Of a stretch of DNA of 64,000 nt, positions 35,860-62,973 are shown piece by piece (positions within the stretch are counted from its first letter, which is position 1; each line of letters opens with the position of its first letter). Position numbers and translations under genes: made by a program. This stretch comes from Chloroflexota bacterium (GTDB lineage Bacteria > Chloroflexota > Anaerolineae > Anaerolineales > Anaerolineaceae), in contig CP069394.1 of the NCBI GenBank assembly GCA_016887485.1, forward strand, positions 558,001 to 622,000. Direction: 5' to 3'. The notes below the pieces were generated by a model. The model searched no databases and was not told the DNA's origin. It saw only the letters and a program-made list of their open reading frames with translations.

Positions 35860-36452
35860 CAGTTCCTCGCCTCCTGGCGCTGCACCCAGCTCCACAGATC
35901 ATCAAGGATTTCCTTGTCCGTGTTCTCTTGAGGCACACCGATGGAGGTGGAGCGGCAGATGGCAGAACATAGGCCGCAGCCCATGCAAAGGCCTGGGTCC
36001 ACTTCGGCGACCTGGATCACCCCTCGGAAGGGAACTTTCTTTTCGACCAGTGAAATGGCGTGGTAGGGACAGCCTTCGGTGCAAAGTCCGCAACCAACGC
36101 AGGTCTGTTGGTCAACCCTTGCAGTCTTGATGGGCGTGACTCGGCCCTCTTCAACAGCAATCTTCTTGACCGCTGTGATGACACCGGAAATGTGGATCTC
36201 CTGGGGGCAGGCGGCATAACAGAGGTCGCATGCCGAACAGAGCCAGGTTGTTGGATTATCAAAGGCTTCCTGCTTCATTTCCATCATGGCCAGACGCAGC
36301 AAACGGCGGGGATTGTATTTCGGTTCGCCTTTTTGCTGAACCATACATTTGCTCACGCAGGTGCCGCAGGAATAGCAGAGTTCCAAGAACTCTCCACCCG
36401 GCAAGGCCTTCACCTGTTCGGCAAATGTTTGGACACCGGTGTCATGGTTCAT
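35859..36452 (-). CDS. hdrC: HdrC-like protein fused to a two-cluster ferredoxin domain
   Basis: The first 100 residues have the HdrC layout with CYSCGTCVSKCM and CSACDLCYAACP, two [4Fe-4S] motifs. Residues about 115-165 add a ferredoxin with CVGCGLCTEGCP and CMGCGLCSAICR. The full length is 197 aa. HdrC normally hands electrons from HdrA to HdrB, but no HdrB (CCG-domain) gene exists in the operon, so electrons may go elsewhere, for example to the AOR side. The start overlaps the hdrA stop (ATGA). Confidence 0.82.
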   Translation of the reverse strand: MNHDTGVQTFAEQVKALPGGEFLELCYSCGTCVSKCMVQQKGEPKYNPRRLLRLAMMEMKQEAFDNPTTWLCSACDLCYAACPQEIHISGVITAVKKIAVEEGRVTPIKTARVDQQTCVGCGLCTEGCPYHAISLVEKKVPFRGVIQVAEVDPGLCMGCGLCSAICRSTSIGVPQENTDKEILDDLWSWVQRQEARN

Positions 36453-38971
36453 TTGGCCTCCAATTGGCTGGTGATGGCTTTGACGAGTGTGTCGGAATAG
36501 ACCATGGCTTCCTCAACGCCCGGAACGCCGGGGAATTTCTTAAGGCGTTTGGACATTTCAGGTTTGAGCCGTTCGATCTCTTCGTGAAGTTCTTCAGGTG
36601 CGATATTATCGAGAACATCCTGCATTTCATTCAGCACCCGGGCGTATTTGTCACCTTCGGCAGCACTGATCCACTCGATGCGGAAGCGGCCTTCAGTCAT
36701 ATCCATTCTCTCGAACATCTTCTTGAGCCGGGAGGCACGCTTAGCACCGACGATCTGACCGGTGATGTAGTGGCAGTCCTGAGGATGGCAGCCGGAATAA
36801 AGCACGCCGCCGGCACCCAGCCGGAATGCTTCATAGATGAAGTCGCTATCCATCCGGGCGGAGCACATGACCTTCATACCGCGTTCATTCGCCGTATAGT
36901 CAAAGTGACTGGTTCCGGCGAGGTCCGCGCCACCATAGGAGCACCAATGGCAGCGGAAAGCGAGGATTTTCTCTTCCGGCTTGTCGGCCAGAAGGGCTCG
37001 CATCTGCGCCAGGATTTGGGCATCCGTGTAGTGCAATTGGGTGATGGCGTCCTCGGGGCATTCGGCCACACAACCACCGCAACCGTGGCATTTGGCGGTG
37101 ATGATCTCAGCGGCTTTATCGCCTTCAATCTTCACAGCACCATAGGGGCAGGCTTTGACGCATAAGCCGCAAGCCCGGCCTTTGGTTTCCGCTGAACAGC
37201 GATCCGGCCAGACAACCGCAACGGTCGGTTCGATCTCCCATTCTTCCGAATGGAGAATACGGCTGGCACGGGCTGCTGCCGCAGAACCCTGGGCAACGCT
37301 GTTGGGGATGTCTTTCGGACCCTGGCAGGCACCGGCAAAGAAGATACCGTCGGTGGGGCTGTCCATTGGGCGCAGCTTGGGATGGTATTCCATGAACCAG
37401 CCGCCGGGGCTCTGGGCCACATTCAACACGGAGCTCATATGGTTCTGATCCGGTTGGGGAATGGCAGCCTGGTTCAACATGACCATGTCATATTCTTTTT
37501 CGGTCACCAAACCTAAACCCATGTCTTCTGCATGGACGATGAGGTTATGGGTTTCGGGATCTTCGGTGATCAGGCTTGGGCGGCCTTGACTGAAATGGAT
37601 CCCCATTTCGCGGGCACGGTCATAGAATTCCTCATAACCTTTGGAAGGTGTGCGGATATCGATGTAGTAGATGGTGATATCCACTTCAGGGTGCATCTGC
37701 TTGAGCAGTACGGCATTCTTGATGGAATACATACAGCAGAAGTTGGAGCAGGAGGAATTGTAGCGTTTATCCCGTGAGCCGACACAGTTGATGAAGGCCA
37801 ATGTCTTGGGGGACTTATGGTCACTGGGGCGGATAAGGTCACCGGCCGTTGGGCCGGCAGAGTTGTTGAGCCGCTCCATCTCCATGGCGGTGATCACGTT
37901 GGGATAGCGGGAATAGCCATATTCGTCCATCACACTCGGATCGAAATGACCGAAGCCCGTGGCCACGATGATGGCGCCGATATCTTCTTCCACCAGTTTG
38001 TCTTCCTGGCTGAAGTCAATCGCTTCCAATGCGCCGCAGGCATCCACGCATTTATAGCAGTGAATGCAGTTCTCCATATCAATGGAGTAGATTAACGGGA
38101 CAGACTGGCTCATCGGCACATAGGCCGCCTTACGGGGAGCCAGGTTCATATCAAAATAGTTGGGAACTTCTACAGGGCAAGCTAGCGTGCAGGCACCGCA
38201 ACCGTTACAGCGGTCCGCACGGACATACTTGGCTTTTTCCCGAAGGGTTACTTTGAAATTTCCGACAAATCCTTCAACCTTTTCAACTTCGGTGAAGGCT
38301 CTCACATCAACTAGGGGCTGACGCGCCGCGTCAACCATTTTAGGTGCGAGTATTCATATACTACAGTCCATGGTGGGGAAGGTCTTGTTGAGCTGAGCCA
38401 TGACCCCACCGATTGTCGGTTCCTTTTCTACGAGAATGGTATGAATGCCCTGTTCAGCCAGGTCCAGGGAAGCGCTGATGCCAGCCACGCCGCCGCCAAT
38501 GACCATTGCTTTTTGGGTCACAGGGACGTTGATCATGTCGAGTTCAGTCAGGAAGCGGACCTTGGCAACTGCTGAGGCTGTCAGGTCTTTAGCTTTGGCC
38601 AGTGCGCCTTCTCGGTCATGACCATGGGCCCAGGTGCATTGCTCCCGGATGTTGGCCATTTCCATCAGGAAGGGGTTCAATCCCGCTTCGGCAACCGCAG
38701 CCCTGAAGGTGGGTTCGTGCATCCTGACAGAGCAGGCTGAGACCACAACCCGGTTGAGATTGTATTTCTTGATGTCTTCTTTGATCAGCCGCTGGCCTGA
38801 ATCAGCACAGGCATACAATGTGTCGGTCGCCCGGACGACATCCGGCAGACCTTCAGCGAATTCGACCACTTCTTTGGGCGGGATGACACCGGCGATATTA
38901 CTGCCGCAGTGGCAGACATAAACCCCAATTCGGAGTTCTTCTTCAGGCACTTCGTTGGGTTTTTCGCTCAT
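36449..38971 (-). CDS. hdrA: Selenocysteine-containing HdrA with C-terminal MvhD domain
   Basis: I read this as one 840-aa flavoprotein with an in-frame TGA at 38354-38356 decoded as Sec206. Upstream codons give an HdrA N-terminus (CHCG near 20, the FAD-binding VIGGGVAGISASLDL, then KTFPTMDCSI). Downstream codons continue HdrA without a frame change (APKM, VEGFVGNFKV, ferredoxin motifs CNGCGACTLACP and CIHCYKCVDACG). In HdrA homologues the residue at the TGA is Cys (SICIL.PKM), which gives Cys203-x-x-Sec206 here. Two more ferredoxin motifs and an MvhD domain (CHWCSYGG, SGCHPQDC; about 690-840) follow. HdrA bifurcates electrons by FAD. A SECIS-like hairpin follows the TGA. Its start overlaps the previous gene by ATGA. 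Confidence 0.87.
38299..38350 (-). promoter_or_regulatory. Candidate bacterial SECIS element in hdrA
   Basis: Seventeen bases after the TGA a 9-bp stem forms, GGTTGACGC with GCGTCAGCC (one G-T pair), and the apical loop is GGC (38325-38327), 27-29 bases after the TGA. A lower helix CTCGCAC/GTGAGAG with one mismatch extends it. Position and loop guanines fit bacterial SECIS elements that bind SelB. Confidence 0.75.
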
Positions 38972-39480
38972 CGAGGATCCTTGGCTTTGGATGGGAAGTT
39001 CAAAGATTCTTTAACCAGTTTATGCCGGGTGCGTTGTGACCTCTGATCGGGAGTGGTGTATTCCAGAGCGTCCTTCGGACAGATCTTGACACATTGCGGG
39101 CCGTCTTCGATGTCCTCGCACTGATTGCAAAATTCCGCCAGTTTCGTAGCGTGGTTGATCGAGATCGCACCGAAATCGCAGGCTTCAATGCACCAGGCAC
39201 AACCGTCACATTTCTGCGGGTCAATCCGGATGATACCAGATTCGGTATCCTGAGTCAGGGCGTCACGGGTGCAGGCGCTCACGCAGGGTGCATTTTCACA
39301 GGTGCGGCAGGCCACAGCCGTGATCAGGACTTCATCCACACGGACAGTCCGGATGCGGCTGCGATAGGAGTTGAACTCACCAGTCTTTGTATAGGAGCAA
39401 ATGTACTCACAAAGTTGACAGCCAATGCATAATTCTGGATCACAAACGATGTATTTATATTTGGATGTAGAAGCAACCAT
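38968..39480 (-). CDS. HycB/AorB-type four-cluster ferredoxin
   Basis: The 170-aa protein has four [4Fe-4S] motifs in the HycB style: CIGCQLCEYIC, the CRTCENAPCVSAC block, CDGCAWCIEACD and the CNQCED...CVKICP pair. It is the direct electron partner of tungsten aldehyde oxidoreductases of the AorB/BamC kind and lies 11 bases after the AOR gene. It should carry electrons from the AOR cluster to HdrA. AAGGAGA precedes the ATG; the end overlaps hdrA by ATGA. Confidence 0.9.
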   Translation of the reverse strand: MVASTSKYKYIVCDPELCIGCQLCEYICSYTKTGEFNSYRSRIRTVRVDEVLITAVACRTCENAPCVSACTRDALTQDTESGIIRIDPQKCDGCAWCIEACDFGAISINHATKLAEFCNQCEDIEDGPQCVKICPKDALEYTTPDQRSQRTRHKLVKESLNFPSKAKDPR

Positions 39481-39491
39481 TATTCTTCTCC

Positions 39492-41378
39492 TTAAACGCC
39501 GATCTCTTCAGCGACATCTGCCATTCCCAAATCAACGAGGAGTTGTTTGGGAATCAGGCCTTCTTCAGTCCAGCCTTTGGCTTTGAAATATAGCTGTTTC
39601 ATATAATCTAATTCTTCATCTGTGACAACATGACCAGCTCCAGGACCCTTAGTCATTGGGTCGTGCTTCCACCGGTAGGGGATGTCGTCATCTTTTTCTG
39701 TCCACCCCTCTCGAATGTTAAAAGCTTTTTTGATTGTGTGAGCCCTAATTCCAATTAAGTCAACATCATCATAATCAAAATTCCAACCTGTTGTGGCATT
39801 GATTAGTTTAGCGATTGCCGGCCAGGCGCCTGCACGATCAGCTTTTCCTGTGAAGCAGCGTCGAATGAATTTGCACATCGGCAGCGAGTCATAAACAGCG
39901 GCATATTCTTCTGAACGAGACGCAACAACACCTCTGGTTTCATCAACGGTATAACGATTTGTTTCTCCTTTGATATCTGGATCATATGCAGCAGATCGAT
40001 TATGGCAACCCCCTCGTGTGCCAACGGCAAGACCCATCGCAAACGTTTTTAATGATCTTGCATCATAACCTGGGCATTCCAGTCCCTTAATATTCATTGC
40101 CCATTTCCAGGATTCGGAATTTCGTTCATTGTCGATTTTCTTCGACGCTATCCTGGTACCCTCTGCTAAAAGTTCGCCAATTCCTTCCTTGTCACGAATC
40201 AGTTCAGCTAATGTGACCCCGGCTTCTCCATTACCAAAACATGGCTCAAAACCATCCGGATATTTTTTGCATCGGAAATCATCTTTTTTCAATACACCGC
40301 GTTCAAAACATTCCATTGTATATGATATGGTGACTCCCATGCTCATGGTATCCATACCACTTCTATCAGAAATATCTACCATTCTAATGGCTGCGGTCAT
40401 ATCTCCAATACCACAGTTTGAACTTACTGCTTGCAAGCATTCATATTCAATGCCTGTCATTGAACCTGCAAATGGCCCTTTCTTAACCATCGACATTTGC
40501 TCACAAGCGATCGGACATTGCGCACAAGCGATGACTTTAACTTTATGATGCTCATCCAGGTATTCTCCGCTGACCAACTCTGCAAACTCAAATGTTCCTT
40601 CCTGATAATTTCGAGTTGGAAGGAATCCTTCCTTATTAGCATTGAGTACATTCGTTGAGGTTCCATAAATTCGATATTTCTCGGTGTTCTTACCCTGAGC
40701 TGCTTCAGTAATATCAAAGGACAATTTGAGCAGCGTATCGGGATCTGCAACGGTAACCCCATGAGTGCCGCGGAAGGAGACAGCCTTGAGTTTCTTGCTG
40801 CCCCAGACAGCGCCATGGCCTGTGCGGCCTGCCTGGCGTCCGTCGTTGGTGACATTGCCGAAGCGAACCATATTCTCGCCGGCTGGGCCGATGGTCGCAG
40901 AACGGATCTGATCATCGCCGAATTCTTCACGGATGGCTTCTTCGGTTTCATAAGTACCCAGACCGAGGAGGTTGTCCGCGGGCAGGAATTCCACGCGATC
41001 ATCATCAATGAAGACGTGGACCCATTTATCGCTGGTGTTATGGATGACCACACCATCCCATTGAGCACGTTTCATGGCGATGCACAGCCAGGAACCGGAT
41101 AGACTGTCGCCGATGAAACCTGTCAGGGGGGATTTGGAAGCCAAGCCATATTTCCCACCGACCGGAACCGGGGTGCCTGCGAATATGCCATTCGCGAAGC
41201 AAACCGGATTTCCCGGATCATAGGCATCGCAGCCGACTTCGATGTTCTCCCAACAAAGTCGTGTAGCCATTGCGACGCCGCCAATATAAAGCTTGTACCA
41301 ATCTTCTGGCTTGTCTTCGGCCCAATGTGTTCGTTCTTTTAGGTCGATGTGCAGAATTTTACCGCTGTAACCGTACAT
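39492..41378 (-). CDS. Tungsten-type aldehyde:ferredoxin oxidoreductase (AOR family)
   Basis: The 628-aa protein is full length for the family. The N-terminal domain has the pterin-binding stretches (GGVAMATRL, ASKSPLTG and TGHGAVWGSKKLKA). The cluster motif is Cys285-x2-Cys288-x3-Cys292 plus Cys502. It contains two metal-bound pterins by family rule and oxidises aldehydes to acids or the reverse. AOR-family relatives include the BamB subunit of class II benzoyl-CoA reductase, which also works with Hdr-like partners, so the true substrate is open. AGGAGAG lies eight bases before the ATG. It is the first gene of a nine-gene operon. Confidence 0.9.
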   Translation of the reverse strand: MYGYSGKILHIDLKERTHWAEDKPEDWYKLYIGGVAMATRLCWENIEVGCDAYDPGNPVCFANGIFAGTPVPVGGKYGLASKSPLTGFIGDSLSGSWLCIAMKRAQWDGVVIHNTSDKWVHVFIDDDRVEFLPADNLLGLGTYETEEAIREEFGDDQIRSATIGPAGENMVRFGNVTNDGRQAGRTGHGAVWGSKKLKAVSFRGTHGVTVADPDTLLKLSFDITEAAQGKNTEKYRIYGTSTNVLNANKEGFLPTRNYQEGTFEFAELVSGEYLDEHHKVKVIACAQCPIACEQMSMVKKGPFAGSMTGIEYECLQAVSSNCGIGDMTAAIRMVDISDRSGMDTMSMGVTISYTMECFERGVLKKDDFRCKKYPDGFEPCFGNGEAGVTLAELIRDKEGIGELLAEGTRIASKKIDNERNSESWKWAMNIKGLECPGYDARSLKTFAMGLAVGTRGGCHNRSAAYDPDIKGETNRYTVDETRGVVASRSEEYAAVYDSLPMCKFIRRCFTGKADRAGAWPAIAKLINATTGWNFDYDDVDLIGIRAHTIKKAFNIREGWTEKDDDIPYRWKHDPMTKGPGAGHVVTDEELDYMKQLYFKAKGWTEEGLIPKQLLVDLGMADVAEEIGV

Positions 41379-41633: not shown

Positions 41634-43232
41634 CTAAGGGATGGAGATGTGGTCAAAGGGTATATCGCTGACACGATACCATCCAATCTCAGGAAAGAGC
41701 TGCGAGGTTTGCGCGCGGTAGTGAGCGTGTTGGGTGAAAAGGGGTTGCGGCTGGCCGAAATAGGTGGTTTGTCCATTATTTAGGACGATCACTGTGTCTG
41801 CCAAGAGGGCGGCGAATTCCACGTCGTGGGTCACGACCAGTATAGCTTTTTTCTGGCGTTTCCAGGATTGGAGCAACTGGACAAGCCTTTGTTTATTGCC
41901 ATAGTCCAGGCCGCGGGTCGGTTCATCCAGCAGGATGACGGGCGGATTGTAGATTGTGATGGCGGCCAGGGCGACCCGCTGCCTTTCACCAACCGAGAGG
42001 TCACGGGGATAGGCGTTTGCCAGGTCGTCCAGGCCTAAATCATGGAGATGATGGAGCATTTCCTCCTGGGGCATCTCCAGGCCGTGATTTGCGAGAGTGA
42101 CATTGAGCTCATCCAGAACGGATTCGGAGAATAGCAGGTCGTTGGGGTTTTGGGGGAGATAGGCGACCTGGCGGATGATCCTATTGAGGGATAGACTTTC
42201 AATGTCTTGTCCCATCACCTCTCGATTGCCCTGTGATGGCACCAAGCCTAACACTGACCTGAGCAGGGTGGTTTTGCCGGCGCCGTTGGGTCCCATCATG
42301 GCCAAGATTTCACCCTGGTTGATGGTGAGAGAGACTTGATCCAGAATTTGCCGGTTGTTGATGCTGACTGAGAGATCAATGACCTGTAAGGCCGGTTGTG
42401 ATCCAGTTGGTTTTGCTAATTTGGGCCGCTTCACGGTTTCGTCAACCAGAACAGTTGGGAAATCCTCCGGTCGTACGGGCAGGGGGGAGAGGTTCAACGC
42501 TTTCCCGATTTGGATGAGTGGCGGAACCAGGTCCATCAGCGGGAGGATATCCTGAGGTTTACCTTCATGGGCTGTGCCATCGCCTGGCAGGTAAATCATG
42601 TGATTGACATAAGGCAAGACTCTCTCCAGCCGATGTTCGGAAAGGAGAATGGTCAGATCCAGACGGGTTTGGAGATCGAGAATGTAATGTAGGATGTCAT
42701 CAGCTCCCTGCGGATCAAGCTGAGATGTCGGTTCGTCCAGGATAAGTAGGCGGGGTTCGGTCACCAAAGCACTGGCAATTGCAACACGCTGTTTTTCGCC
42801 GCCAGAGAGCGTTGCGATTTTTCTTTTTTGCAGCTCACCAATACCAAGAATGTCACAGACCGTATCCACCCTTGATTGCATCTCTGCTCGGTCGAGGCCA
42901 GAGCGTTCCAATGAAAAGGCGATCTCATCTTCCACCCGGTCATAGATGAACTGCGATTCTGGCTCCTGAAAGACAAAACTGACCCATTGGGCCATATTTT
43001 CCGGCCCTAATTGAGTGGGGTTCTGGCTAAAGACTTCCATTGTCCCGCTGATCACGCCACCGGTGAAGTGCGGTACCAACCCGTTCAGGCTGCGCAGGAG
43101 GGTTGACTTTCCACTGCCGGATGAGCCCGCCACGAGGGTCATGCTTCCCGTGGGGATCTGAAAGGAGATATCCTTGAGGATGGCTGCCTCGGACTGAGGA
43201 TATTTGAAAGAGAGGTGGCTAATGGTGATCAT
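41634..43232 (-). CDS. Double ECF transporter ATPase (EcfA-A' fusion), B12-linked
   Basis: The 532-aa protein contains two complete ABC ATPases. The first has GSSGSGKSTLLRSLNGL, LSGGEKQRVA and LILDEPTSQLDP; the second has GPNGAGKTTLLRSVLGL, the signature LSVGERQRVAL and ILLDEPTRGLDYG. It powers vitamin uptake by an energy-coupling-factor transporter together with the EcfT and S subunits encoded upstream. It overlaps ecfT by 14 bases. The operon is preceded by a cobalamin riboswitch, so cobalamin is the likely substrate. Confidence 0.93.
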   Translation of the reverse strand: MITISHLSFKYPQSEAAILKDISFQIPTGSMTLVAGSSGSGKSTLLRSLNGLVPHFTGGVISGTMEVFSQNPTQLGPENMAQWVSFVFQEPESQFIYDRVEDEIAFSLERSGLDRAEMQSRVDTVCDILGIGELQKRKIATLSGGEKQRVAIASALVTEPRLLILDEPTSQLDPQGADDILHYILDLQTRLDLTILLSEHRLERVLPYVNHMIYLPGDGTAHEGKPQDILPLMDLVPPLIQIGKALNLSPLPVRPEDFPTVLVDETVKRPKLAKPTGSQPALQVIDLSVSINNRQILDQVSLTINQGEILAMMGPNGAGKTTLLRSVLGLVPSQGNREVMGQDIESLSLNRIIRQVAYLPQNPNDLLFSESVLDELNVTLANHGLEMPQEEMLHHLHDLGLDDLANAYPRDLSVGERQRVALAAITIYNPPVILLDEPTRGLDYGNKQRLVQLLQSWKRQKKAILVVTHDVEFAALLADTVIVLNNGQTTYFGQPQPLFTQHAHYRAQTSQLFPEIGWYRVSDIPFDHISIP

Positions 43233-44247
43233 GGTTGGGTATCAGAAGTAATGGAATCGCAGGAACCAGGCCAAGCAGCCATGCTGCGAGGGGCAGGGTG
43301 GGGAAGCTTAATGTCGGATAGGGTGTGAAAGATAAGAAGTCCCTATTTTGACTGACGATGAGGGCTGCCATGAAGATGAAGACCAAACCAAAAAGGATGA
43401 TAGCGAAAATATCGCTCTTTTGCCACTGGTCTTTGTGAAGATGGACGATATGGACCTTTTTTGAAAGGGTGAGAAATATGAGGGCGATGATTAAAAAGGC
43501 GATCAGATATAAAGCCCAGCTGACCCAGGTTGGGTAGCTGAAAAGGGAGAGCAGCCAGCCCGAAAAGACCAGGAAAGTGGACAGGATTAGCAAAATGAGT
43601 GCTTTAGGGGAGTTTTGACCTTCATCTTGGACCTGAAATCCCCGGGCTGTCATTGATTCGGCAAGCTGGACGGCATTTTCGAGGCTGGTGACCATCAGTG
43701 GGATCAGAATAGGGAGCCAATCCGAGAGTTTCTTCATCGGATTCCCGCGGATCATCTGAGCCTCTTTAATCTGGGCCGTGCGTTCCTGAATAGAGGGGAA
43801 AAAAGTCAATGAAATCGTTGTGATCAACGTTAGCGGATAGAAAGCAGTGGGGATCAAATGGGTCAGCTGCTCAACCGAGAGGGCCTTGTTGAAGAGGGTG
43901 AAAGTGAGATAGAGAGAGCTGATCACCAGGCCGTTGATGGTGCCATGGAGCAGGCTCTCGAGGGTGAATTTCCCGCCGATCAGGAACCAATTATCAGGAA
44001 GTGAGAATAATGCCGTGTTGCCGGAATGGGTGAAGATGAAGTTGATGAGTGAAGAGAGAAACAGCATGGTGCCAATGAAACTCAGGTTTTGCCTCAGCCA
44101 GCGTTTACGGTTGCCAGGCTCAGTCATTCGAACGCCAAGTGCCAAGAGCAGTATCAGGATGAGGAGAAGCAGGAGCGGATTTCGGGTGGTGAGCAGAATG
44201 ATGATGCCCGCCAACAACCACGCAAGCCAGGAAAAGGCAGTGGTCAT
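43219..44247 (-). CDS. ECF transporter transmembrane protein EcfT, B12-linked
   Basis: The 342-aa membrane protein has the EcfT core with coupling-helix motifs (AQMIRGNPM and AESMTARGF, the A-R-G type contacts to the ATPases). Extra C-terminal helices make it longer than usual. It joins the ATPase to the substrate-binding S component, which is encoded immediately before it with an ATGA overlap. Confidence 0.88.
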   Translation of the reverse strand: MTTAFSWLAWLLAGIIILLTTRNPLLLLLILILLLALGVRMTEPGNRKRWLRQNLSFIGTMLFLSSLINFIFTHSGNTALFSLPDNWFLIGGKFTLESLLHGTINGLVISSLYLTFTLFNKALSVEQLTHLIPTAFYPLTLITTISLTFFPSIQERTAQIKEAQMIRGNPMKKLSDWLPILIPLMVTSLENAVQLAESMTARGFQVQDEGQNSPKALILLILSTFLVFSGWLLSLFSYPTWVSWALYLIAFLIIALIFLTLSKKVHIVHLHKDQWQKSDIFAIILFGLVFIFMAALIVSQNRDFLSFTPYPTLSFPTLPLAAWLLGLVPAIPLLLIPNHDHH

Positions 44248-45053
44248 GGCTGCTTTCCTTCCGGCAGGATTTCAAATGAGAAGCGTTGGTTGAAACGAGT
44301 AAAGATATTCAGGACGGGGCGGGCAAGGAAGGTGACGATCAGGATATTGCCGATTGAACGGGTGACATCCCAGACCACTGAGGTCGCCAGGTAGTAGGTG
44401 CCGTAGCGGCCGATGTTCTCGGCCAAAGTTGCGCCCTGGAACCAGGTCTGACCAGGTGCACCGCCGAGGAAGGGCCAGAACCAGAGGTTCATGATCGCGC
44501 CGTAGAGCATTCCCCAAATAGCGCTGAAGAAGGCCAGAAGAATAATCTCACTAGGTTTCCCTGTGACATGCAGGCGTCTGAACAAGGGCTTCAGTATGCC
44601 GGCGCTTTGACCGACCCAGCCTGCGGTGATCATCTGCCCGGGAAGCCAGGGGCCAACACCGCCGGTGATCAGCCCTGAAATGAGCATGGTCATCGCGCCC
44701 ATCAGGAATCCCACTCGACCGCCAAAGAAGTAACCGGTCAGAATGATCAAAAAGAAGATCGGGCTGAATCCGGCAGGCCCTGGGATAGCCGTCTCAAGGA
44801 ATCGAAGCCCGGCATTGAGGGCAATCAGAACGCCCAGGAATGCGATGAGCTTTGTGTTCAGGATGGTAGATTGTGCTTCGAAGAGGATGATCAGGACACA
44901 GAGAACGATAATCAGACTGACCATCACGGGAAAAGACGAGCTTGAGAAGCTGGCATCCCTGGCTTGCGGCACCACAAAGGGCGCCAGCAAGCTCAGGAAT
45001 CCCAGAAGGAAGACAAAGCTATTTACGAGCAGGCTTTGTATCCTGAATTTCAT
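44244..45053 (-). CDS. ECF transporter S component, probable cobalamin-specific (CbrT-like)
   Basis: The 269-aa protein has six or more membrane helices with the ECF S-component pattern (FFGGRVGFLMGAMTMLISG and GPWLPGQMI). Its size exceeds that of most S components (about 180-200 aa), with an added N-terminal helix pair. Substrate specificity for cobalamin is inferred from the riboswitch and the transcobalamin-like neighbour, not from the S sequence. The start overlaps the stop of that neighbour (TAATG). Confidence 0.82.
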   Translation of the reverse strand: MKFRIQSLLVNSFVFLLGFLSLLAPFVVPQARDASFSSSSFPVMVSLIIVLCVLIILFEAQSTILNTKLIAFLGVLIALNAGLRFLETAIPGPAGFSPIFFLIILTGYFFGGRVGFLMGAMTMLISGLITGGVGPWLPGQMITAGWVGQSAGILKPLFRRLHVTGKPSEIILLAFFSAIWGMLYGAIMNLWFWPFLGGAPGQTWFQGATLAENIGRYGTYYLATSVVWDVTRSIGNILIVTFLARPVLNIFTRFNQRFSFEILPEGKQP

Positions 45054-47539
45054 TATTTATTCTTCTTCGAGAAGCCCAAAACGACGATAACAATGATCAC
45101 CGCCAGAATGCCTAAGATGATGATGGGCAGAATGGAGGGAGATTCGTTATCAATTTCGTCAGGTGCTGCTTCAGTTGGTGCAATCTCTACAGTTTCGGTC
45201 TCAGTAGTCGGCTCATCAGTAGCTTCGATGGCGGGTTCATCGGTGGCATCGAATGGTTCGGCCGGCACAAAGCTGTCGGTGCTGTCGTTGTAGAGGTCGC
45301 TGTAGGCGAGGTTGGGCTCGATGCTGTAGTTTTTGAGGAGCTCGCCGCTCTCACAAATGGTGCTCAACACCGGCAGGGTGTCAGGCGGCAGGGAGGGGAA
45401 GATCTCCCAACTGGTGAAGTGCCAGGCCACAACGGAACCTGGCAGAACGACTGAATCTCCTGCGCCGGTGCTCTCGAATGCCCATTGTTGACCATCCCAG
45501 TACCAATAAGACCAGTAATTGGTCTCACCATCGGCATTGGTAATCCCCAGGATGCTATTGATAAATCCTTCGGCATTGTCATATTCAAAACCGGAAGAAT
45601 CCAGCAGGGTCAGGCCATCCATTGACTCCTCGCTCAACTGAACACAGGCGGATTGGGCCTCGCCATCGCCGGGATCAACGATGATCGCAGCGGTGTTTGT
45701 AGAGGTGGTATCCTCAGGTTGCATGATGAGGTCACCGCCAAAGAGGGCCAAAAGGGCGGATGCTGTTGACATCACGCTGTCATCGGAATATTCCCAGGAA
45801 TAGACGAAGGACCCATTGGCTTTTTGGTAGGACATCAGGCTGGTGAGTGGGCCTCTGGCACTGGCTGTCTGCCAATCTTCAATGGATTCACCCAGAGCAT
45901 TGAGCGCCATGACGACATAGGCAGTCGTGCTTGAATCACCCCAGCCGCCATCGTCTTCCTGGGTGTTATGGAGGTAGGCGACAGCAGCCTGGATAATCGG
46001 ATCTGATGTTAGATAGCCTGCGGCTAACAAGGCCTGAATTGCAAGAGAAGTATCCACTGGAGAGGATGAGACAAAGCCTGCACGGTATCTCCACCCTCCG
46101 TCTTCACGTTGTAAACTTGCCAGGGTTGAGATTGCACCGCTTGGAATTGAACTTCCTGCTGCTGCCAGCCCAAGGATGCTCATTGCTTGTTGCAAAGTAT
46201 CGTGTGGCTCGCCAAACGACTTTGTGGTTTCATTATAATTTTCCAGCAGTCGTTCGGGGAGGTTCACGCCAGCGAAATCTTCTGGGTCCTCGCCCAGGGC
46301 ATTAATGCCGAGAATTGCTACGCCAATGGAACCAGGTCCAGTCTCAAGATAGGTTTCCAGGTTGGCTATAAGATAATTTTGGGTGGAGGTGCCTTCTCTT
46401 TGGAGGGTGGCAGGCTGCCAGCCCGCAGCATCAAGCGCCATAATGACATCAATAGTTGTGCGAGCCGATTCCCATCCGCCAGCGGAATCCTGTGCGGCCA
46501 CAAGGAAATCAAAGGCCTCACTGGCCTGGACGAGGTCGCCAAGTCCATAGAGGGGCTGACCGGAAAGGCCCAGAAGGGCATCGGCTGTTGAATAGGCATT
46601 GCCGTAATCGCCGCCGATCAATCCACTTTCCTGTTGAAGAGCTTGCAGGGCTGAAATGGGATTGCCGCCTTCCAGCTGCCAGTTATTAGTCATGGGAAGG
46701 TCGCCAACTGCGGCAATCGCCTGGAGCATCGCACTGGTGGTGCTGGCGTTGGTTGTGGAATCCCATTCAGTCTGCCAGCCACCAACATCGTTCTGTTGGT
46801 CCTGCATGTAGGTGATGGCAGCTGTGATGGGCTCTGAGGTGTTGTCATAAAAACCGGTCGCTGCCAGAGCTAAGATGGCAACCGGCGTTGTGTCAAGATA
46901 GCTGCCGTAGCCATCATTCCAGCGGCCTTCGTCATCCTGGGCTTCGGCTAACCAGACTGCGGCCTCCGAAGGGATGGAGAAATTATTGGCGACCAGGCCC
47001 AAAATGGCCCAGAGCTGATCGGTGACATTGTCAACCGTTGCAGTGCCATAAATACCGGTGTTGAGATCGTATTGTTCATTGACCAGATAGAGCAGATCCG
47101 TTCCCTGGTCACCAAAATTGTGGGGATCAGCGTTAGCTGCGGCAATGGCTGTGAGCAACTGACCCGCACGGGCGACATTGAAGCCAGGGGTTTCGGTTGC
47201 TTCCTGGTTCACCCATTGGATACCCTCAGATGCGAGATAATCAATGGGGCTCAGGCCCTCAGAGCTGACCAGCCGGTCCTGGGTTGTATTGTTGGCAGCC
47301 ATTGCCAAAACAGCTCGCAAGGTTGCAGCAGCGCTGGAGGATTCATCAAACCACTGGATGCCGCCATCCGGATTGATCTGAGTGGATAAATAGTCGAATG
47401 CTGATTCAATGACTTTCTCCATCGAACTCTGGGCGGCAGCGGATGGAACAGGCGCTGCCATAACCGAAGAGATCGGCCTGGCTAACAAGCCAAGAATCAC
47501 AGCGAGGGTGAAAACAAAAGACGTAATCCGGGATTTCAT
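45053..47539 (-). CDS. Transcobalamin/intrinsic-factor-like surface protein (alpha-alpha barrel plus DUF4430)
   Basis: The 828-aa exported protein has a signal peptide. Residues about 40-615 form many prenyltransferase/squalene-cyclase-like alpha-alpha repeats (repeated DGGW, LQREDGGWRYRAG and GGWGDSSTTAYV type units). A DUF4430-like beta domain follows (about 625-720; LTLLDSSGFEY, NYWSYWYWDGQQW). A Thr/Glu-rich linker and one C-terminal membrane helix (about 800-823) end it. This is the domain plan of animal intrinsic factor and transcobalamin, with tandem barrels and a membrane anchor. It probably captures cobalamin or cobinamide at the cell surface for the ECF transporter encoded next. AAGGAG precedes the ATG. 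It is controlled by a cobalamin riboswitch. Confidence 0.82.
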   Translation of the reverse strand: MKSRITSFVFTLAVILGLLARPISSVMAAPVPSAAAQSSMEKVIESAFDYLSTQINPDGGIQWFDESSSAAATLRAVLAMAANNTTQDRLVSSEGLSPIDYLASEGIQWVNQEATETPGFNVARAGQLLTAIAAANADPHNFGDQGTDLLYLVNEQYDLNTGIYGTATVDNVTDQLWAILGLVANNFSIPSEAAVWLAEAQDDEGRWNDGYGSYLDTTPVAILALAATGFYDNTSEPITAAITYMQDQQNDVGGWQTEWDSTTNASTTSAMLQAIAAVGDLPMTNNWQLEGGNPISALQALQQESGLIGGDYGNAYSTADALLGLSGQPLYGLGDLVQASEAFDFLVAAQDSAGGWESARTTIDVIMALDAAGWQPATLQREGTSTQNYLIANLETYLETGPGSIGVAILGINALGEDPEDFAGVNLPERLLENYNETTKSFGEPHDTLQQAMSILGLAAAGSSIPSGAISTLASLQREDGGWRYRAGFVSSSPVDTSLAIQALLAAGYLTSDPIIQAAVAYLHNTQEDDGGWGDSSTTAYVVMALNALGESIEDWQTASARGPLTSLMSYQKANGSFVYSWEYSDDSVMSTASALLALFGGDLIMQPEDTTSTNTAAIIVDPGDGEAQSACVQLSEESMDGLTLLDSSGFEYDNAEGFINSILGITNADGETNYWSYWYWDGQQWAFESTGAGDSVVLPGSVVAWHFTSWEIFPSLPPDTLPVLSTICESGELLKNYSIEPNLAYSDLYNDSTDSFVPAEPFDATDEPAIEATDEPTTETETVEIAPTEAAPDEIDNESPSILPIIILGILAVIIVIVVLGFSKKNK

Positions 47540-47550
47540 TAACCAACTCC

Positions 47551-47587
47551 TTATTTAATAAAAATGACCTTACGGGAAAAGGTCATT
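47551..47587 (-). terminator. Attenuator hairpin of the cobalamin riboswitch
   Basis: AATGACCTT and AAGGTCATT form a 9-bp stem followed by a T-rich tract, just before the ribosome site of the transcobalamin-like gene. It should stop transcription when the ligand is bound. Confidence 0.75.
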
Positions 47588-47795
47588 AAACCAGTTCCGC
47601 CCAGATGGGCGGAAAGGGAAGTCGGCTGGTGTTGCGATAGCCGATACCCAACTTTCCTTTCCACGAAGTTTTTGGGTCATAAAGGGCGGGTTATCGGACT
47701 TCGCCAAATTGGCGTTACCGTTGCGGGACAGTGCTGGACTTGCACCAGCTTCCCCCCTTACGCACCTTGCATCCGGGCATAGGTGCACCCTTTAT
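47588..47795 (-). promoter_or_regulatory. Cobalamin riboswitch
   Basis: The minus strand has the cobalamin aptamer core: GCTGGTGCAAGTCCAGCAC, TCCCGCAACGGTAA and a B12-box-like AAGTCCGATAACCCGCC at 47685-47701. P1 pairs ATAAAGGG (47788-47795) with CCCTTTAT (47679-47686). Further hairpins lead to the attenuator. It regulates the transcobalamin-like protein and the ECF transporter genes. Confidence 0.92.
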
Positions 47796-47848
47796 GGCTT
47801 TTTCATTTGTAAAATTCATTCTAAATGGCGCAGAGTATTTTGTCAATA

Positions 47849-47903: not shown

Positions 47904-48323
47904 TTACTGAACCGTGATTGAAACCAGGTCCTTGACGTTCAGTTTGCCGGACATGTCGGGCATCACGGTGCGCAGGCTGCCTTCATCAAAACCAACAATA
48001 CAATTGGCGCAGGCCATCAGTTCTTCGACGGTGATGCTGGCTTCGTAACCATCAGCAGCGGTGAAGGTGACCTCTGTGCCGGAAGCAGCGCCAGCGTCTG
48101 AGAGAAGGGCGGAAAGCAGCACACCTTCATAGGTGGTGACAACGCCGTCTTTGCCGGTGTAGTCCACAGAAGTGGTGCCGAGGGCTTCGAGGCCGCTCTG
48201 GGTGTAGGAAGCTTCGTTTACGGTCAGGATGGCGGCTTCTTCGGTGGCCTGGGCTTGAGGGGTGCAGGCGGTGATCAGGGCGATCAAAACGAGCAGGGTT
48301 GTAATTAAGGTTGTCTTCTTCAT
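47904..48323 (-). CDS. Small lipoprotein with sulfite-oxidase-like (SUOX) fold, copy 1
   Basis: The 139-aa product has a lipoprotein signal (LITAC, Cys20) and one module like the oxidoreductase molybdopterin-binding domain: YEGVLLSALLSDAG, then VTFTAADGYEASIT and a C-terminal VKDLVSITVQ strand. The Cys that binds Mo in true sulfite oxidases is not evident. Two other Cys (MACANC) are close together. It is the last gene of the Moco-leader operon. The function is inferred as extracytoplasmic pterin binding; this is not shown. AAAGGA lies upstream of the ATG. Confidence 0.65.
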   Translation of the reverse strand: MKKTTLITTLLVLIALITACTPQAQATEEAAILTVNEASYTQSGLEALGTTSVDYTGKDGVVTTYEGVLLSALLSDAGAASGTEVTFTAADGYEASITVEELMACANCIVGFDEGSLRTVMPDMSGKLNVKDLVSITVQ

Positions 48324-48356
48324 GGTTATTCCTTTAAAAATACTTTGTTTTTTTTA

Positions 48357-48839
48357 TTACGGATTGACGATAATTTCCGTGATCTGGAACACCCAGCGAT
48401 TGGCGGGGGTGGTCGGGAAGACCAGGCGGATTGGGCCGGCATCCGGATCAGCTTCGGTGATCCATGCGCCGCCCTGCTTTATGGCAACAATGCCATTAAC
48501 CGCTTCGTCTTTGGAGATTTCGATGGCATAACCATCAGCAGCAATGGCTGTGAGGGTGCTGTAATCTGCAGGTGCACCGGCTTCTTCGAGTAAGGTTGCC
48601 AGATCAACGCCGCTGAATGAGCGGACTTCATCTTCGCCACGTGATTTTTCCATCAGGACGTCGTCCAGACTCACAAAATCCATAGCCGCCAGGTCTGCAT
48701 AGGAGAGGGTCAGGGGATTGGTGACCTCTCCACTAATTTTCAGGGTCCAATCGACATTAGGCACACTGTTGCACGCGGAGAGCAGCAATGGAATGACGAA
48801 GAGCAGGATCCAGGTAAATTTCTTGGTACTTTTTAACAT
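48357..48839 (-). CDS. Lipoprotein with sulfite-oxidase-like fold, copy 2
   Basis: The 160-aa product has a lipobox (LLSAC) and a better-kept SUOX-type domain: ISGEVTNPLTLSYADLAAM, SFSGVDLATLLEEAGA, LTAIAADGYAIEIS, and an ending with VFQITEIIV. In molybdopterin enzymes this region wraps the cofactor. It has no enzymatic partner here, so it may be a binding protein. AAGGAGGAAG precedes the ATG. It lies between the phosphodiesterase-like lipoprotein and the first SUOX copy. Confidence 0.7.
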   Translation of the reverse strand: MLKSTKKFTWILLFVIPLLLSACNSVPNVDWTLKISGEVTNPLTLSYADLAAMDFVSLDDVLMEKSRGEDEVRSFSGVDLATLLEEAGAPADYSTLTAIAADGYAIEISKDEAVNGIVAIKQGGAWITEADPDAGPIRLVFPTTPANRWVFQITEIIVNP

Positions 48840-48851
48840 TATTCTTCCTCC

Positions 48852-49982
48852 TTATTTTTGGATGAATGTAACAGGTATGAGCATATCAGCGGCTGTAAGC
48901 GTACCGTGGTTACCGCCATCTGCGGTTGTGTGCATGCCGTGATCGGCCAGAATGATGATGAGGGTGTCACTTGGTAACATATCAACAATATCGGCGATGT
49001 ATCCATCGACCCGGATCAGGGCAGTCTCGTATTCGGGTGAATTATCGCCATATTCATGACCCATGTCATCAATTTCATGGAAATGGATATACAGCAGGTG
49101 CGGCAGGTTATTCTGGATCACTTCCATTGCGTTCAGATAAACGTTGTCATCGGACCAGCCGTTATTATCCCGGTCTCCGCTTAGGATCACTTCAGCATTG
49201 CGAAGGTTGAAAGGCAGGCTGGCACCTTCAACCGCTATTGCCATTTTTCCGTTATCCGTGACGATATCAAATAGGGTGGTCAATTCTGTTGAGCGGTAGC
49301 CGTAGCCATAAACACCGTTATTGGCCGCAATGGTGCTGGTGAATAAAGCAGCCGAAGCGGATGTGGTAATTGGGGGGTAGATGCTTATGCCACAATTGAT
49401 CTTGTCCTGGCTGGCGAAGAAGGGCTGCTCTCCGGCAGCGACCATGGATTGGAGTTTGTCGTATTGAGTGCCATCCGTGAGGATGATGACCACCTGTTGG
49501 GCAGAAGTAGTGAGCTGGGGTTGGCCATGCGCTTCTGGCAAGCTGGGGAGACCCAGGGCTGACAAAACGGTTGGGCTGATGTCGAGAATCGAGAGATCAA
49601 CCCCCGACAGTCTCTTTGACGGAGTCACCTCAATCGAGGTGGGCTGATAGGCGACCTCACCGATGGTCAACGTGCCGTTGGGGGAGAGAGTGGTTTCTTC
49701 TGCAATCTCATCCCAGATGAAGGTCAGGGACTCGGTATTTTCCATGGTCAAAGTGATCTGGTCAATCAGGGTAAAGCCATTATCAAAGAAGAACTGACCG
49801 AGGGGGACGGTTTGGATCTCTTCGTCGGAGGTGTCGATGTAGAAGGCTACATTATCGGCCGTAATTGAGCTAACTGCGTCCGAGTTTTCATTGATGGTAA
49901 TCGCCCACGTCGCTTGGCATGCTGTGCCAATGAAAAGGAGCAGGATCAGTATGGGGAGGAGTAATTTCTTTCGTGTAGGCAT
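48852..49982 (-). CDS. Lipoprotein of the nucleotide pyrophosphatase/phosphodiesterase family
   Basis: The 376-aa product has a signal and lipobox-like IGTAC (Cys22). An N-terminal module of about 100 residues resembles the SUOX repeat (VPLGQFFFDNGF, LTFIWDEI). Then follows an alkaline-phosphatase-superfamily domain: ILTDGTQYDKL near 170, HFHEIDDMGHEYG near 300 and ILADHGMHTTADGGNHG near 350 supply metal Asp/His ligands. NPP enzymes cleave pyrophosphate bonds, including those in dinucleotide cofactors. In this operon that activity could release molybdopterin from its nucleotide form; that is inference. Confidence 0.72.
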   Translation of the reverse strand: MPTRKKLLLPILILLLFIGTACQATWAITINENSDAVSSITADNVAFYIDTSDEEIQTVPLGQFFFDNGFTLIDQITLTMENTESLTFIWDEIAEETTLSPNGTLTIGEVAYQPTSIEVTPSKRLSGVDLSILDISPTVLSALGLPSLPEAHGQPQLTTSAQQVVIILTDGTQYDKLQSMVAAGEQPFFASQDKINCGISIYPPITTSASAALFTSTIAANNGVYGYGYRSTELTTLFDIVTDNGKMAIAVEGASLPFNLRNAEVILSGDRDNNGWSDDNVYLNAMEVIQNNLPHLLYIHFHEIDDMGHEYGDNSPEYETALIRVDGYIADIVDMLPSDTLIIILADHGMHTTADGGNHGTLTAADMLIPVTFIQK

Positions 49983-49985
49983 AAA

Positions 49986-50903
49986 TTAATTCGATTCTAT
50001 TGAGGTGATATCCACCAGCCAGGCACTTCTGCCGCGGGCTGGCAGGACGAGGGTGATGGAGTCGTGATCCATGGCGAGGACAGCGCCTTCAATTTCATCA
50101 CCCGAAAGTTCAATGGTCTCACCGTGGCTATCGGTGACCGTGATGGACTCAGGGTTGGCGTTAACCAGCAGGGGAGCCAGCAGCGCACCTTCGATCCAAT
50201 TGGCGGTGGTGGCATGGCTCAGGTTGCCTTCATCATCCGCAAGCATCACATCGGTGCTTTCCACGGGCAGCCGGACGGTTGCACCGATCAAAAGGCGGCC
50301 AATAGAGGTTTTGTTGCTGTCAATGGTGAGTGGTGTATCGACACCCACGACAACAATCCGGGTGATGCCTTTCAGCCAGCTTGAAGCGTGAAGGGTTTCA
50401 GAGGCAAACCGAACACCGTCCACATAGGGCACCAACATGGCGGTTTCATCGATATATTCGGATTCGATTGTGGTTTCGCCGCCGTCATTGGTGATGAAGG
50501 TGACGGATTCATATTCTTCAACGCCGTTCTGGGCGAGTAAATCCTGCACTGTAATATGGGTGCCGGCATTTTCCTGATTGGGCAGGACCTCATTAATCCG
50601 GATGAAGGAAGGATCGGGGACATCGCCGGTCAGATCAATCACTGCATAGAACTGGATACCTGCCATTTCAACAGCGCCGTGATCATCGTGGCATGTCGTG
50701 CAGTCGTGGAATTCAGCGCCATCATGGCATTCTGCGCACTCGTTCATTTTGACGCCTTCTTCCCAGAGGGCGCCAAAGGAAAATTCCTTAATCAGAGCCA
50801 CTGGCATCGGTTTGGTTGTGATCAGGATCAGGACGATCACTGCCAGGGCCAATACAAGGCCGATGGCAAGAAAGAGTATCCAGGGTTTGGGTTTCGTCTC
50901 CAT
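49986..50903 (-). CDS. Membrane-anchored c-type haem protein with SUOX-like repeats
   Basis: The 305-aa protein has an N-terminal membrane helix (about 8-30), then two haem-binding motifs CAECH (56-60) and CTTCH (68-72). Two SUOX-type modules follow (about 80-190 and 200-305; GALLAPLLVNANPES, ITVTDSHGETIELSG). It is the only CxxCH protein in the window and would be matured by the CcmF-thioredoxin fusion at 28088. The role could be redox handling of a pterin cofactor outside the membrane, which is a guess. It is located directly after ecfT. Confidence 0.72.
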   Translation of the reverse strand: METKPKPWILFLAIGLVLALAVIVLILITTKPMPVALIKEFSFGALWEEGVKMNECAECHDGAEFHDCTTCHDDHGAVEMAGIQFYAVIDLTGDVPDPSFIRINEVLPNQENAGTHITVQDLLAQNGVEEYESVTFITNDGGETTIESEYIDETAMLVPYVDGVRFASETLHASSWLKGITRIVVVGVDTPLTIDSNKTSIGRLLIGATVRLPVESTDVMLADDEGNLSHATTANWIEGALLAPLLVNANPESITVTDSHGETIELSGDEIEGAVLAMDHDSITLVLPARGRSAWLVDITSIESN

Positions 50904-50908
50904 AGGGT

Positions 50909-51685
50909 TTATAGCCTTCCTCCATAGTTGACAACGAGAATGAATGTGGAAAGGGCTACCAATAAAAGATTGAAAATCAAGTCCCGATAACTCGGGATGA
51001 CTCGATTGCGAAATGTGCGGGTACGATATTGACCGAACCCACGGCCTTCCATACTGAAAACCAGCTTATCCGCCCTCCGAAGAGCGCTGATCAGCAATGG
51101 TGTCATGAATTGTCGCACAAGCAAGGGGATGCGTTTCAGGCTGCCCTGGTCATAACGTACACCTCGGACCAATTGGGCCTGATAGATCGTCTGGCCTTCA
51201 TCTTCGAGGATGGGTGCCAGGCGTAAGGCTGTGATCAGCATAAAACCGAAGCGATAGGGGAGACCGGCTTTCATCAGGGCGTAAGCCAGGTCCGAAGGGT
51301 TGGTGGTGATGATGAATAAATAACTCATTAGCACAATGGCGAGGAAGCGGCTGCTGAAAAGAAGGCCGGAATCGATGCCACTTTGTGTGATTTTGAAGTG
51401 TTTGATCCCAGGATCCCACAGCACAACTCCGGTCTTTTCAAATAAGAGGTAGACGACGAAGAGGAATATCCCAGTGAAAAAGACCAGCCTGAAACCGCGC
51501 ACTTTCCAAATTTGAGGACAGAGCCAGATCAGTGATATCAAGGCAAGAAGTGCTAGGAGAAAAGTCAGCAAGCCTTTGGTGACGATTAGCACCAAGGCGG
51601 AGAGTAATAAGAGCCAGATAAGTTTATCCAGAGGATAGAGCTGGTGGAAGAAGCTGTTGCCGGGTTGGAAGGTCAGTTTACGCAA
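50909..51685 (-). CDS. ECF transporter transmembrane protein EcfT, second system
   Basis: The 258-aa membrane protein has the EcfT coupling motifs (QLVRGVRYDQG and FSMEGRGFGQ). The start is a TTG at 51685, preceded by AGGAGG and overlapping the ATPase stop by 8 bases; the longer reading frame to 51739 lies within that gene. It belongs with the double ATPase and the S-component fusion encoded upstream. Confidence 0.87.
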   Translation of the reverse strand: MRKLTFQPGNSFFHQLYPLDKLIWLLLLSALVLIVTKGLLTFLLALLALISLIWLCPQIWKVRGFRLVFFTGIFLFVVYLLFEKTGVVLWDPGIKHFKITQSGIDSGLLFSSRFLAIVLMSYLFIITTNPSDLAYALMKAGLPYRFGFMLITALRLAPILEDEGQTIYQAQLVRGVRYDQGSLKRIPLLVRQFMTPLLISALRRADKLVFSMEGRGFGQYRTRTFRNRVIPSYRDLIFNLLLVALSTFILVVNYGGRL

Positions 51686-53183
51686 TTTGACCTCCTGCAA
51701 TGGTGTTGGGAATAAAGGCACCGTATCCCTGGGTGGCAATTACTTCGAAAGCTTTTGCGGTAGGTGCATTGACTTGAATCTCGCCCTGATTCATGAAAAT
51801 CACCCGGTCACAATAACGGTTGGTCAGTCCGGGGTGGTGATTGACCAGCAGGACGGTGTTGCCCTGTTCACAATAGGCTTTCAGGCGCTGCATCCATAAC
51901 CTGGCGTTCTCCAGGTCCTGCCCAATCAACATTTCATCAATAAGCAGGATTTTTGGGTCATGCAGGATGAGGCTGACCAAATTCAGACGCCGTTTTTCAC
52001 CGTAGCTCAGGCTTTGGGGGTGACGGTCCAACTCGCCTGCCAATCCCATTTTTACCAGCCATGACATTGCCTCGGCCTCTTTTTTCGGCGTTGAGAACCT
52101 GAGGTTTTCCAATGTGAAAAGGGCTTCTTCCCAGATGGAAGCAGTAAAAAGCTGGTGGTCGGGATTTTGGAAGATAAAACCTATCTTGCGCACCAGGTCG
52201 GATGTTTTAAGTTTGGAAAGGTCCTGTCCGAAGCCGAATTTTGATCCTCCCGTTGGCTGGATGAGTCCCATGATCGTCAGGAGCAGGCTGGTTTTGCCAC
52301 TGCCGTTCGGCCCCATCAGGCCGATGAACTCACCGGGATATAGGTCAAGATTGATGACGTTGAGAATAGTCTTGTCGTGAATGGACAGAGTGATATCTGA
52401 AAGTGAAAGCAGTGGCTCTTGAGTAGCCCCTGATTTGGGTGATAAGCTTTCCTGTTGTTGGGGTTCCAACTCAGTGGTCATCCTTTTCATGAAGGCGAGA
52501 ATGGATTCTTCTTCCTCAATTTTGCCCTGTTCCATGACAATCACCTGGGGATCCAGATCAACGATCTGCAGGAGTTTGTGTTCAATGATGATGATGGTGA
52601 GACCGTGTTGTTCGGCCAGCAGATGCAAAGTCTCAAATATCTGTCGGGTGGCATCCGGATCCAGGTTTGAAGTCGGTTCATCCAGAATGAGCACATCCGG
52701 AGAGAGGGCCAGCATGGAGGCAATCGCCACTTTTTGTTTTTCGCCACCGGAAAGTGTTGCCAGATCACGCTCCAAAAGGTCTATTCCGTGGACAACGGTT
52801 AGAGCCGATTGGATCGCTGTTTCGATATCCGCTGGGGTTACCTGGCGGTTTTCCAGGCCAAAGGCGATTTCATCCTTGACCGTCAGAGTGCAGAACTGAT
52901 CCTCGGGATTTTGTTGCACATATGCGACCCGTTCACTGGCGGCATATAGCGGCACCTGGGTCATATCGGTCTTATTGACCCAGATTTCGCCAGAGAAGTT
53001 GACTAAGTCATCCTGGAAGAGAAAGCCCGCAAGAGCTTTCGCCAGGGTGGACTTGCCGCATCCGGATTTTCCCGTGATGACCAGAAACTGACCCCGGTCA
53101 ACTTGCAGGTTAACACCTTCCAGGGCAGGTTGTTGCCTGCCCGGATAGGTGTAGGAAAAATCGCGGATTTCGATAAAAGCCAT
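51678..53183 (-). CDS. Double ECF transporter ATPase (EcfA-A' fusion), second system
   Basis: The 501-aa protein has two ABC domains: GKSGCGKSTLAKALAGF with LSGGEKQKVAIA and ILDEPTSNLDP, then GPNGSGKTSLLLTIMGL with LSYGEKRRLNL and a LIDEMLIGQD Walker B in which Met follows Glu. It is a diverged paralogue of the 41634-43232 ATPase. It starts three bases after the S-component stop and is coupled to EcfT by overlap. Confidence 0.92.
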   Translation of the reverse strand: MAFIEIRDFSYTYPGRQQPALEGVNLQVDRGQFLVITGKSGCGKSTLAKALAGFLFQDDLVNFSGEIWVNKTDMTQVPLYAASERVAYVQQNPEDQFCTLTVKDEIAFGLENRQVTPADIETAIQSALTVVHGIDLLERDLATLSGGEKQKVAIASMLALSPDVLILDEPTSNLDPDATRQIFETLHLLAEQHGLTIIIIEHKLLQIVDLDPQVIVMEQGKIEEEESILAFMKRMTTELEPQQQESLSPKSGATQEPLLSLSDITLSIHDKTILNVINLDLYPGEFIGLMGPNGSGKTSLLLTIMGLIQPTGGSKFGFGQDLSKLKTSDLVRKIGFIFQNPDHQLFTASIWEEALFTLENLRFSTPKKEAEAMSWLVKMGLAGELDRHPQSLSYGEKRRLNLVSLILHDPKILLIDEMLIGQDLENARLWMQRLKAYCEQGNTVLLVNHHPGLTNRYCDRVIFMNQGEIQVNAPTAKAFEVIATQGYGAFIPNTIAGGQIA

Positions 53184-53186
53184 AGC

Positions 53187-54563: not shown

Positions 54564-54569
54564 CTCAAA

Positions 54570-54597
54570 CGCTCCTTCGCATTTCTGGAAAGGAGCG
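54570..54597 (-). promoter_or_regulatory. Ribosome-site-sequestering hairpin before the S component
   Basis: CGCTCCTT and AAGGAGCG form an 8-bp stem that buries the AAGGAG ribosome site of the TTG start at 54563. It lies just after the aptamer-like region, so ligand binding could switch translation. Confidence 0.7.
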
Positions 54598-54599
54598 GC

Positions 54600-54740
54600 T
54601 TTACATGACGCGCAAAATGGGATGGCGCGAGATGTTGACCATCTTCTTTCCAAACACGGGAGGCAAGGACGTTTCCATCCTTACCCTAACGGCCGGGATA
54701 CCATAGCATGGCTTTAGGTAGCGTGGCTCGAAGATGTGAT
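54600..54740 (-). promoter_or_regulatory. Structured leader, candidate Moco/Tuco riboswitch
   Basis: The minus strand contains GAGCCACGCTACC, a hairpin GCCAT-GCT-ATGGT, TCCCGGCCG, a stem-loop AAGGATG-GAAA-CGTCCTT with a GAAA tetraloop, then GCCTCCCGTGTTTGGAAAG. From memory this matches the layout and end sequence of the molybdenum/tungsten cofactor RNA motif; I could not run a covariance search. A TAGAAT (54758-54763) may be the -10 box. The genes downstream encode SUOX-fold proteins, which fits. Confidence 0.6.
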
Positions 54741-54808
54741 ATTTTTCTCTCGGGCTTATTCTAACATAAGGTTGAAAATGGATGTAGAGCAAGGGCTGGA
54801 TTAAACTG

Positions 54809-57542: not shown

Positions 57543-57544
57543 GG

Positions 57545-62938: not shown

Positions 62939-62973
62939 GATTAAATCCAATTCTCAGGTCAGGGTGGAACAAA

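Follow-up and report, generated by a model that had tools for sequence, protein, structure and literature searches.

Operon organization and control region

We investigated a window of 64,000 nucleotides (positions 558,001 to 622,000 of contig CP069394.1, assembly GCA_016887485.1) from a Brevefilum-group member of the Anaerolineaceae, whose genome spans 2.9 Mb in a record that is about 95% complete. The minus strand of this window carries an operon that likely serves as a dedicated importer of vitamin B12 (cobalamin). In its reading direction, we find a cobalamin riboswitch, a terminator-like hairpin, the gene of a protein of 828 amino acids (aa), and the genes of the S, T and fused double ATPase subunits of an energy-coupling factor (ECF) transporter. 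Adjacent open reading frames (ORFs) overlap by 1, 4 and 14 bases. All features of this operon given below are on the minus strand.

The 828-aa protein (45,053-47,539) is a candidate capture protein, secreted and membrane-anchored according to its ORF, Pfam/NCBIfam matches, AlphaFold model and Foldseek comparison. It is followed by the substrate-binding membrane subunit S (44,244-45,053; 269 aa), which matches PF12822 (ECF_trnsprt, 41.3 bits) and represents a conserved family (A1), and by the T subunit (43,219-44,247; 342 aa; PF02361, CbiQ, 47.1 bits). The fused double ATPase A-A' (41,634-43,232; 532 aa) shows two ABC_tran domains (PF00005, 202.7 bits) and matches TIGR04520, i.e., an ECF ATPase family, with 334.7 bits. 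That is, S, T and two ATPase domains are encoded together with Pfam matches above the respective cut-offs, which identifies an ECF transporter. The initial annotation of this DNA had put the 828-aa protein first in such an operon, and ORFs and Pfam matches bear this out.

The same annotation had placed a cobalamin riboswitch with attenuator just upstream. Indeed, the aptamer (47,668-47,807) matches RF00174 of Rfam with 62.8 bits (E 3.6e-13) against a gathering score of 31.5, and no second cobalamin riboswitch was found in the 2.9-Mb genome. A terminator-like hairpin with a 9-bp stem and a T-rich tail (47,563-47,587) lies between the aptamer and the start codon and provides the attenuator candidate. 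A consensus scan yields a sigma-70-like promoter candidate (TTGACA-17-TAGAAT, 47,818-47,846) with 11/12 matches. Taken alone, the promoter and terminator scans are each near chance (1 found vs. 0.7 expected). The leader folds more strongly than 200 shuffled sequences (z -3.24), and terminator-like stems are present in 11/13 leaders of relatives. Ligand-bound cobalamin riboswitches generally repress.

Domains and predicted fold of the 828-aa protein

Behind a signal peptide, as judged from the sequence, hidden Markov model (HMM) domains and the structure model agree on two barrels in tandem, as had been supposed. The N-barrel covers aa 37-335 (46,535-47,431; model helices 39-326) and the C-barrel aa 336-610 (45,710-46,534; model helices 330-599). 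They are followed by a DUF4430-like beta domain at about aa 614-712 (45,404-45,700; model strands 616-710), a disordered acidic linker (aa 752-802) and a C-terminal membrane helix (aa 804-827; 45,059-45,130). The latter is hydrophobic, ends in a basic tail and is also seen in the model, in line with the proposed membrane anchor. Pfam reports squalene-hopene-cyclase/prenyltransferase repeats in two blocks (9e-15). The barrel part matches the NCBIfam family SCO2321_fam with 109 bits (cut-off 300) and the beta part SCO2322_fam with 18.5 bits (cut-off 85); both families are actinobacterial, without stated function.

The AlphaFold2 model, built from 15 sequences, has a predicted local distance difference test score (pLDDT) of 82.4 and a predicted template modelling score (pTM) of 0.77. 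It consists of two alpha/alpha barrels plus the beta domain. When the whole model is compared to the PDB by Foldseek, places 1-12 are taken by transcobalamin and haptocorrin (E 9e-11 to 3e-9, 13-15% identity, about 420 columns). VIA reports similar Z values for intrinsic factor (19.8), haptocorrin (19.7) and transcobalamin (19.6); these alignments comprise 328-336 residues and lie within positions 331-712 of the model. These animal carriers likewise consist of an alpha/alpha barrel followed by a beta domain, and both domains align. The 828-aa protein probably works like them. It differs by having two barrels instead of one, a membrane anchor and an ECF importer as partner, and sequence identity to the carriers is 13-16%.

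In most relatives, the beta domain carries a cysteine motif GCPxxxCFC ahead of a YWSYW strand (alignment A6). This motif is missing from the beta domain of the 828-aa protein (45,404-45,700) and from its genus.

Conservation and linkage

Among the relatives searched, the 828-aa protein is encoded by 11/15 members of the same genus, the source genome aside. A riboswitch is located 5' of every homologue for which upstream DNA is available, order-level relatives included. A scan of genome contigs with the 828-aa protein found no relative; these were recovered with the S-subunit alignment. No plasmid record encodes one.

As an independent test of linkage, 80 loci were fetched with the S-subunit alignment alone, and the following counts refer to the 47 loci with at least 6 kb of upstream sequence. 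Barrel and beta-domain genes are both present in 38/47, while 44/47 contain a cobalamin riboswitch, including all 38 with barrel and beta domain. Our own riboswitch model (R1) had missed the riboswitches of Dormiibacterota, which were later found with Rfam. Across Chloroflexota and Dormiibacterota, barrel and beta-domain genes of the S-fetched loci usually lie beside S. The linkage of barrel, beta domain, riboswitch and S is thus not by chance.

The architecture varies among lineages. Two barrels plus beta domain is the form of the source genus, one barrel plus beta domain is found in five loci (L051, L058, L059, L064, L067), and most other Anaerolineae as well as Dormiibacterota have separate barrel and beta genes. 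The latter match the SCO2321/SCO2322 families with scores that are all far below the curated cut-offs. Three loci show the order beta-barrel-barrel and have a further beta domain joined to S, each fusion being one open frame of 735-820 aa (L063:8432-10894, L069:8684-10891, L070:8406-10802). By the gene-fusion argument, this suggests that the beta domain works with S. In two actinobacterial genomes (Tessaracoccus), beta-domain genes are found upstream of S and the barrel gene downstream.

Phylogeny of the barrels

The tree covers 69 barrels. N-barrels of the genus form the sister group of the single fused barrels (support 98/95), while its C-barrels fall with the second barrel of L073, likewise a two-barrel protein (support 98/92). 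Given these groupings, the C-barrel looks like an old extra copy from a duplication that predates the genus, and the single-barrel lineage probably lost its C-barrel. The two-barrel proteins of Dormiibacterota and of the loci with beta-S fusions look like separate duplications. Since the tree is read as an old duplication followed by C-barrel loss in the single-barrel lineage, it is more likely the N-barrel that works with the beta domain, and the C-barrel may serve as a spacer or provide a second site.

We also considered a stepwise series from split genes via a fused single barrel to the double barrel. It is rejected by the same two groupings.

Probable B12 requirement of the genome

We searched for CbiC (corrin ring) and CobS (lower-ligand assembly) in the source genome and in further genus members, and neither was found in any of the genomes searched. 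On the other hand, the source genome encodes a B12-dependent methionine synthase MetH with activation domain, a cobalamin adenosyltransferase and two corrinoid proteins, one of which adjoins a gene of a URO-D-type methyltransferase. Together, this suggests that complete cobamides probably have to come from outside the cell.

Proposed function and alternatives

We consider it likely that the operon is a dedicated B12 importer in which the 828-aa protein captures cobalamin between barrel and beta domain and hands it to S. When cytoplasmic cobalamin is low, the riboswitch would let transcription pass the terminator. The 828-aa protein would be exported, held by its C-terminal helix, and capture extracellular cobalamin by closing the beta domain on a barrel, as in intrinsic factor and transcobalamin. 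S would receive the vitamin from the capture protein, and the T-AA module would drive inward delivery with ATP.

Several observations weigh against this reading. First, DUF4430 (PF14478) scores 19.8 bits on the beta domain (E 0.0011), below the cut-off of 23.8, and matches 3/29 family members at E up to 0.1. Thus, from the initially proposed combination of barrel repeats with a DUF4430 beta domain, barrel and beta domain stand, where the latter is based on model and Foldseek and not on Pfam. Second, PF01122 (Cobalamin_bind) does not match the 828-aa protein at E up to 1 and is found in a distant relative (L026) alone, below cut-off (E 0.0027). Sequence profiles built from the fused proteins or from the beta domain did not reach transcobalamin when compared to the PDB. 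Third, the superposition on transcobalamin that the initial annotation had suggested as a check shows that each domain matches on its own, but that the domains are positioned relative to each other in another way than in the animal carriers (root-mean-square deviation about 22 Å), given ligand-free predictions with uncertain domain orientation. Similarly, in the model of a single-barrel relative (pLDDT 78, pTM 0.58), each domain matches the carriers singly and the placement departs likewise. Among the best 50 VIA matches of that model there is no B12 carrier, while Foldseek does list carriers. The arrangement of the animal proteins is therefore retained with respect to domain order and top Foldseek matches, while PF01122 does not match and the domain placement differs in the models. 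Fourth, two order-level loci (L025:3321-7010, L026:6264-9950) consist of riboswitch, barrel, T and AA without detectable S, and two others (L075, L079) have S without detectable barrel gene, beta-domain gene or riboswitch. Finally, FecCD permeases elsewhere in the genome represent other uptake systems; no Rfam riboswitch was found in their two neighbourhoods.

An alternative is that the barrel protein does not bind free B12. As the carriers' cleft is not seen in the models, the protein could instead serve as an adhesin, or as a receptor for B12 that is bound to another protein or cell, such that S alone binds the vitamin within a B12-importing operon. Such barrels are known with many different ligands, and in Lactobacillus delbrueckii the characterized vitamin B12 transporter ECF-CbrT functions with just the S subunit (PMC5997447). 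We nevertheless regard this as unlikely, given the domain order of the animal carriers, their leading position in Foldseek, and the conserved linkage and S fusions, which point to ligand hand-over.

As transporters of cobalt and of precursors are under the control of cobalamin riboswitches as well (PMC3766115), the imported compound might be cobalt or a corrinoid precursor such as cobinamide rather than complete cobalamin. This is improbable: without CbiC and CobS, which were not found, neither would be readily convertible to cobalamin, and the S subunit is a PF12822 protein without a Pfam match to CbiM.

A terpene-cyclase-type enzyme that sits in the operon by accident, as could be read from the squalene-hopene-cyclase repeats and from the best rigid fit of a single barrel, i.e., squalene-hopene cyclase (VIA Z 24, also a point against a B12 carrier), is highly improbable given that the catalytic DxDD motif is missing from the 828-aa protein and any DxDD is present in just 2/58 barrel proteins, that the protein is secreted and anchored with the beta domain fused or adjacent, and that riboswitch control is found throughout.

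Relation to known systems

Three bacterial systems are comparable. ECF-CbrT is also assigned to B12 and, as an ECF-type importer, comprises S, T and two ATPase parts, while the operon described here has its own dedicated module, a cobalamin riboswitch and a candidate capture protein. At the level of sequence profiles, the S family A1 did not match any PDB chain, CbrT included, at E up to 1. In Lacticaseibacillus rhamnosus, a DUF4430 protein is annotated as 'additional lipoprotein component of putative cobalamin ECF transporter' (PMC9963975). This is a similar DUF4430-type accessory, assigned to a cobalamin ECF transporter by annotation only and reported without tandem barrels; the idea of an accessory protein for such transporters is therefore not new. 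BtuG, a B12-binding surface lipoprotein of Bacteroides from a Bacteroidetes-only family, works with the outer-membrane protein BtuB (PMC6143338). It is comparable by role, i.e., as a surface protein of a B12 locus that catches the vitamin ahead of the transporter.

We found no description of bacterial B12 operons with barrel-plus-beta proteins in the literature searched, which was mostly that outside subscription journals. The operon appears to be a new version of an ECF-type B12 importer, while membership in the animal family is not supported by sequence. Little is known about how bacteria that lack the BtuB route scavenge B12, and no capture protein has been described for the characterized ECF B12 transporter. 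In Chloroflexota and Dormiibacterota, the family studied here provides a concrete capture candidate; the two Tessaracoccus genomes have a related arrangement. Binding and hand-over can be tested directly with the single-barrel, split and S-fused versions of the family.

The family also bears on the origin of the animal B12 carriers. Tentatively, and with less confidence than doubt, we suggest that both share one ancestor, i.e., that the barrel-plus-beta clamp for B12 originated in ECF uptake operons of bacteria, initially as separate proteins that were later fused, where some lineages have a second barrel as a second corrinoid site.

Neighbouring operons

A second ECF operon adjoins the B12 operon on the minus strand (47,904-54,745). 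It stands under a riboswitch for the molybdenum or tungsten cofactor (Moco/W; 54,627-54,745; 77 bits), which recurs in five loci of the genus. It encodes an S-like ABC_cobalt domain fused to Oxidored_molyb-like domains (53,187-54,653), a double ATPase, a T subunit, a 305-aa protein with CXXCH motif, a phosphodiesterase-like protein and two Oxidored_molyb lipoproteins. MoaA, MoaC and MoeA were not found in the source genome or in 7/8 other genus members searched. The remaining member (G005) has all three, but no match to the ECF S gene of this operon. We consider the operon a candidate importer of the molybdenum or tungsten cofactor. No importer of this kind turned up in the literature searched, and the operon is possibly more novel than the B12 operon.

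On the other side, i.e., following the B12 operon on the same strand (36,449-41,378), we find genes of an aldehyde-ferredoxin-oxidoreductase (AFOR_N, AFOR_C), a ferredoxin-like and an HdrA-like protein, which hold the same place in the genus loci examined. The oxidoreductase is likely a user of the tungsten or molybdenum cofactor.

Further upstream (54,903-62,950, minus strand), the window encodes a 1801-aa TPR-like protein and an 879-aa protein with a caspase-like HG...C pattern. Judged by position alone, relatives of the latter recur by the operon in several loci of the genus.

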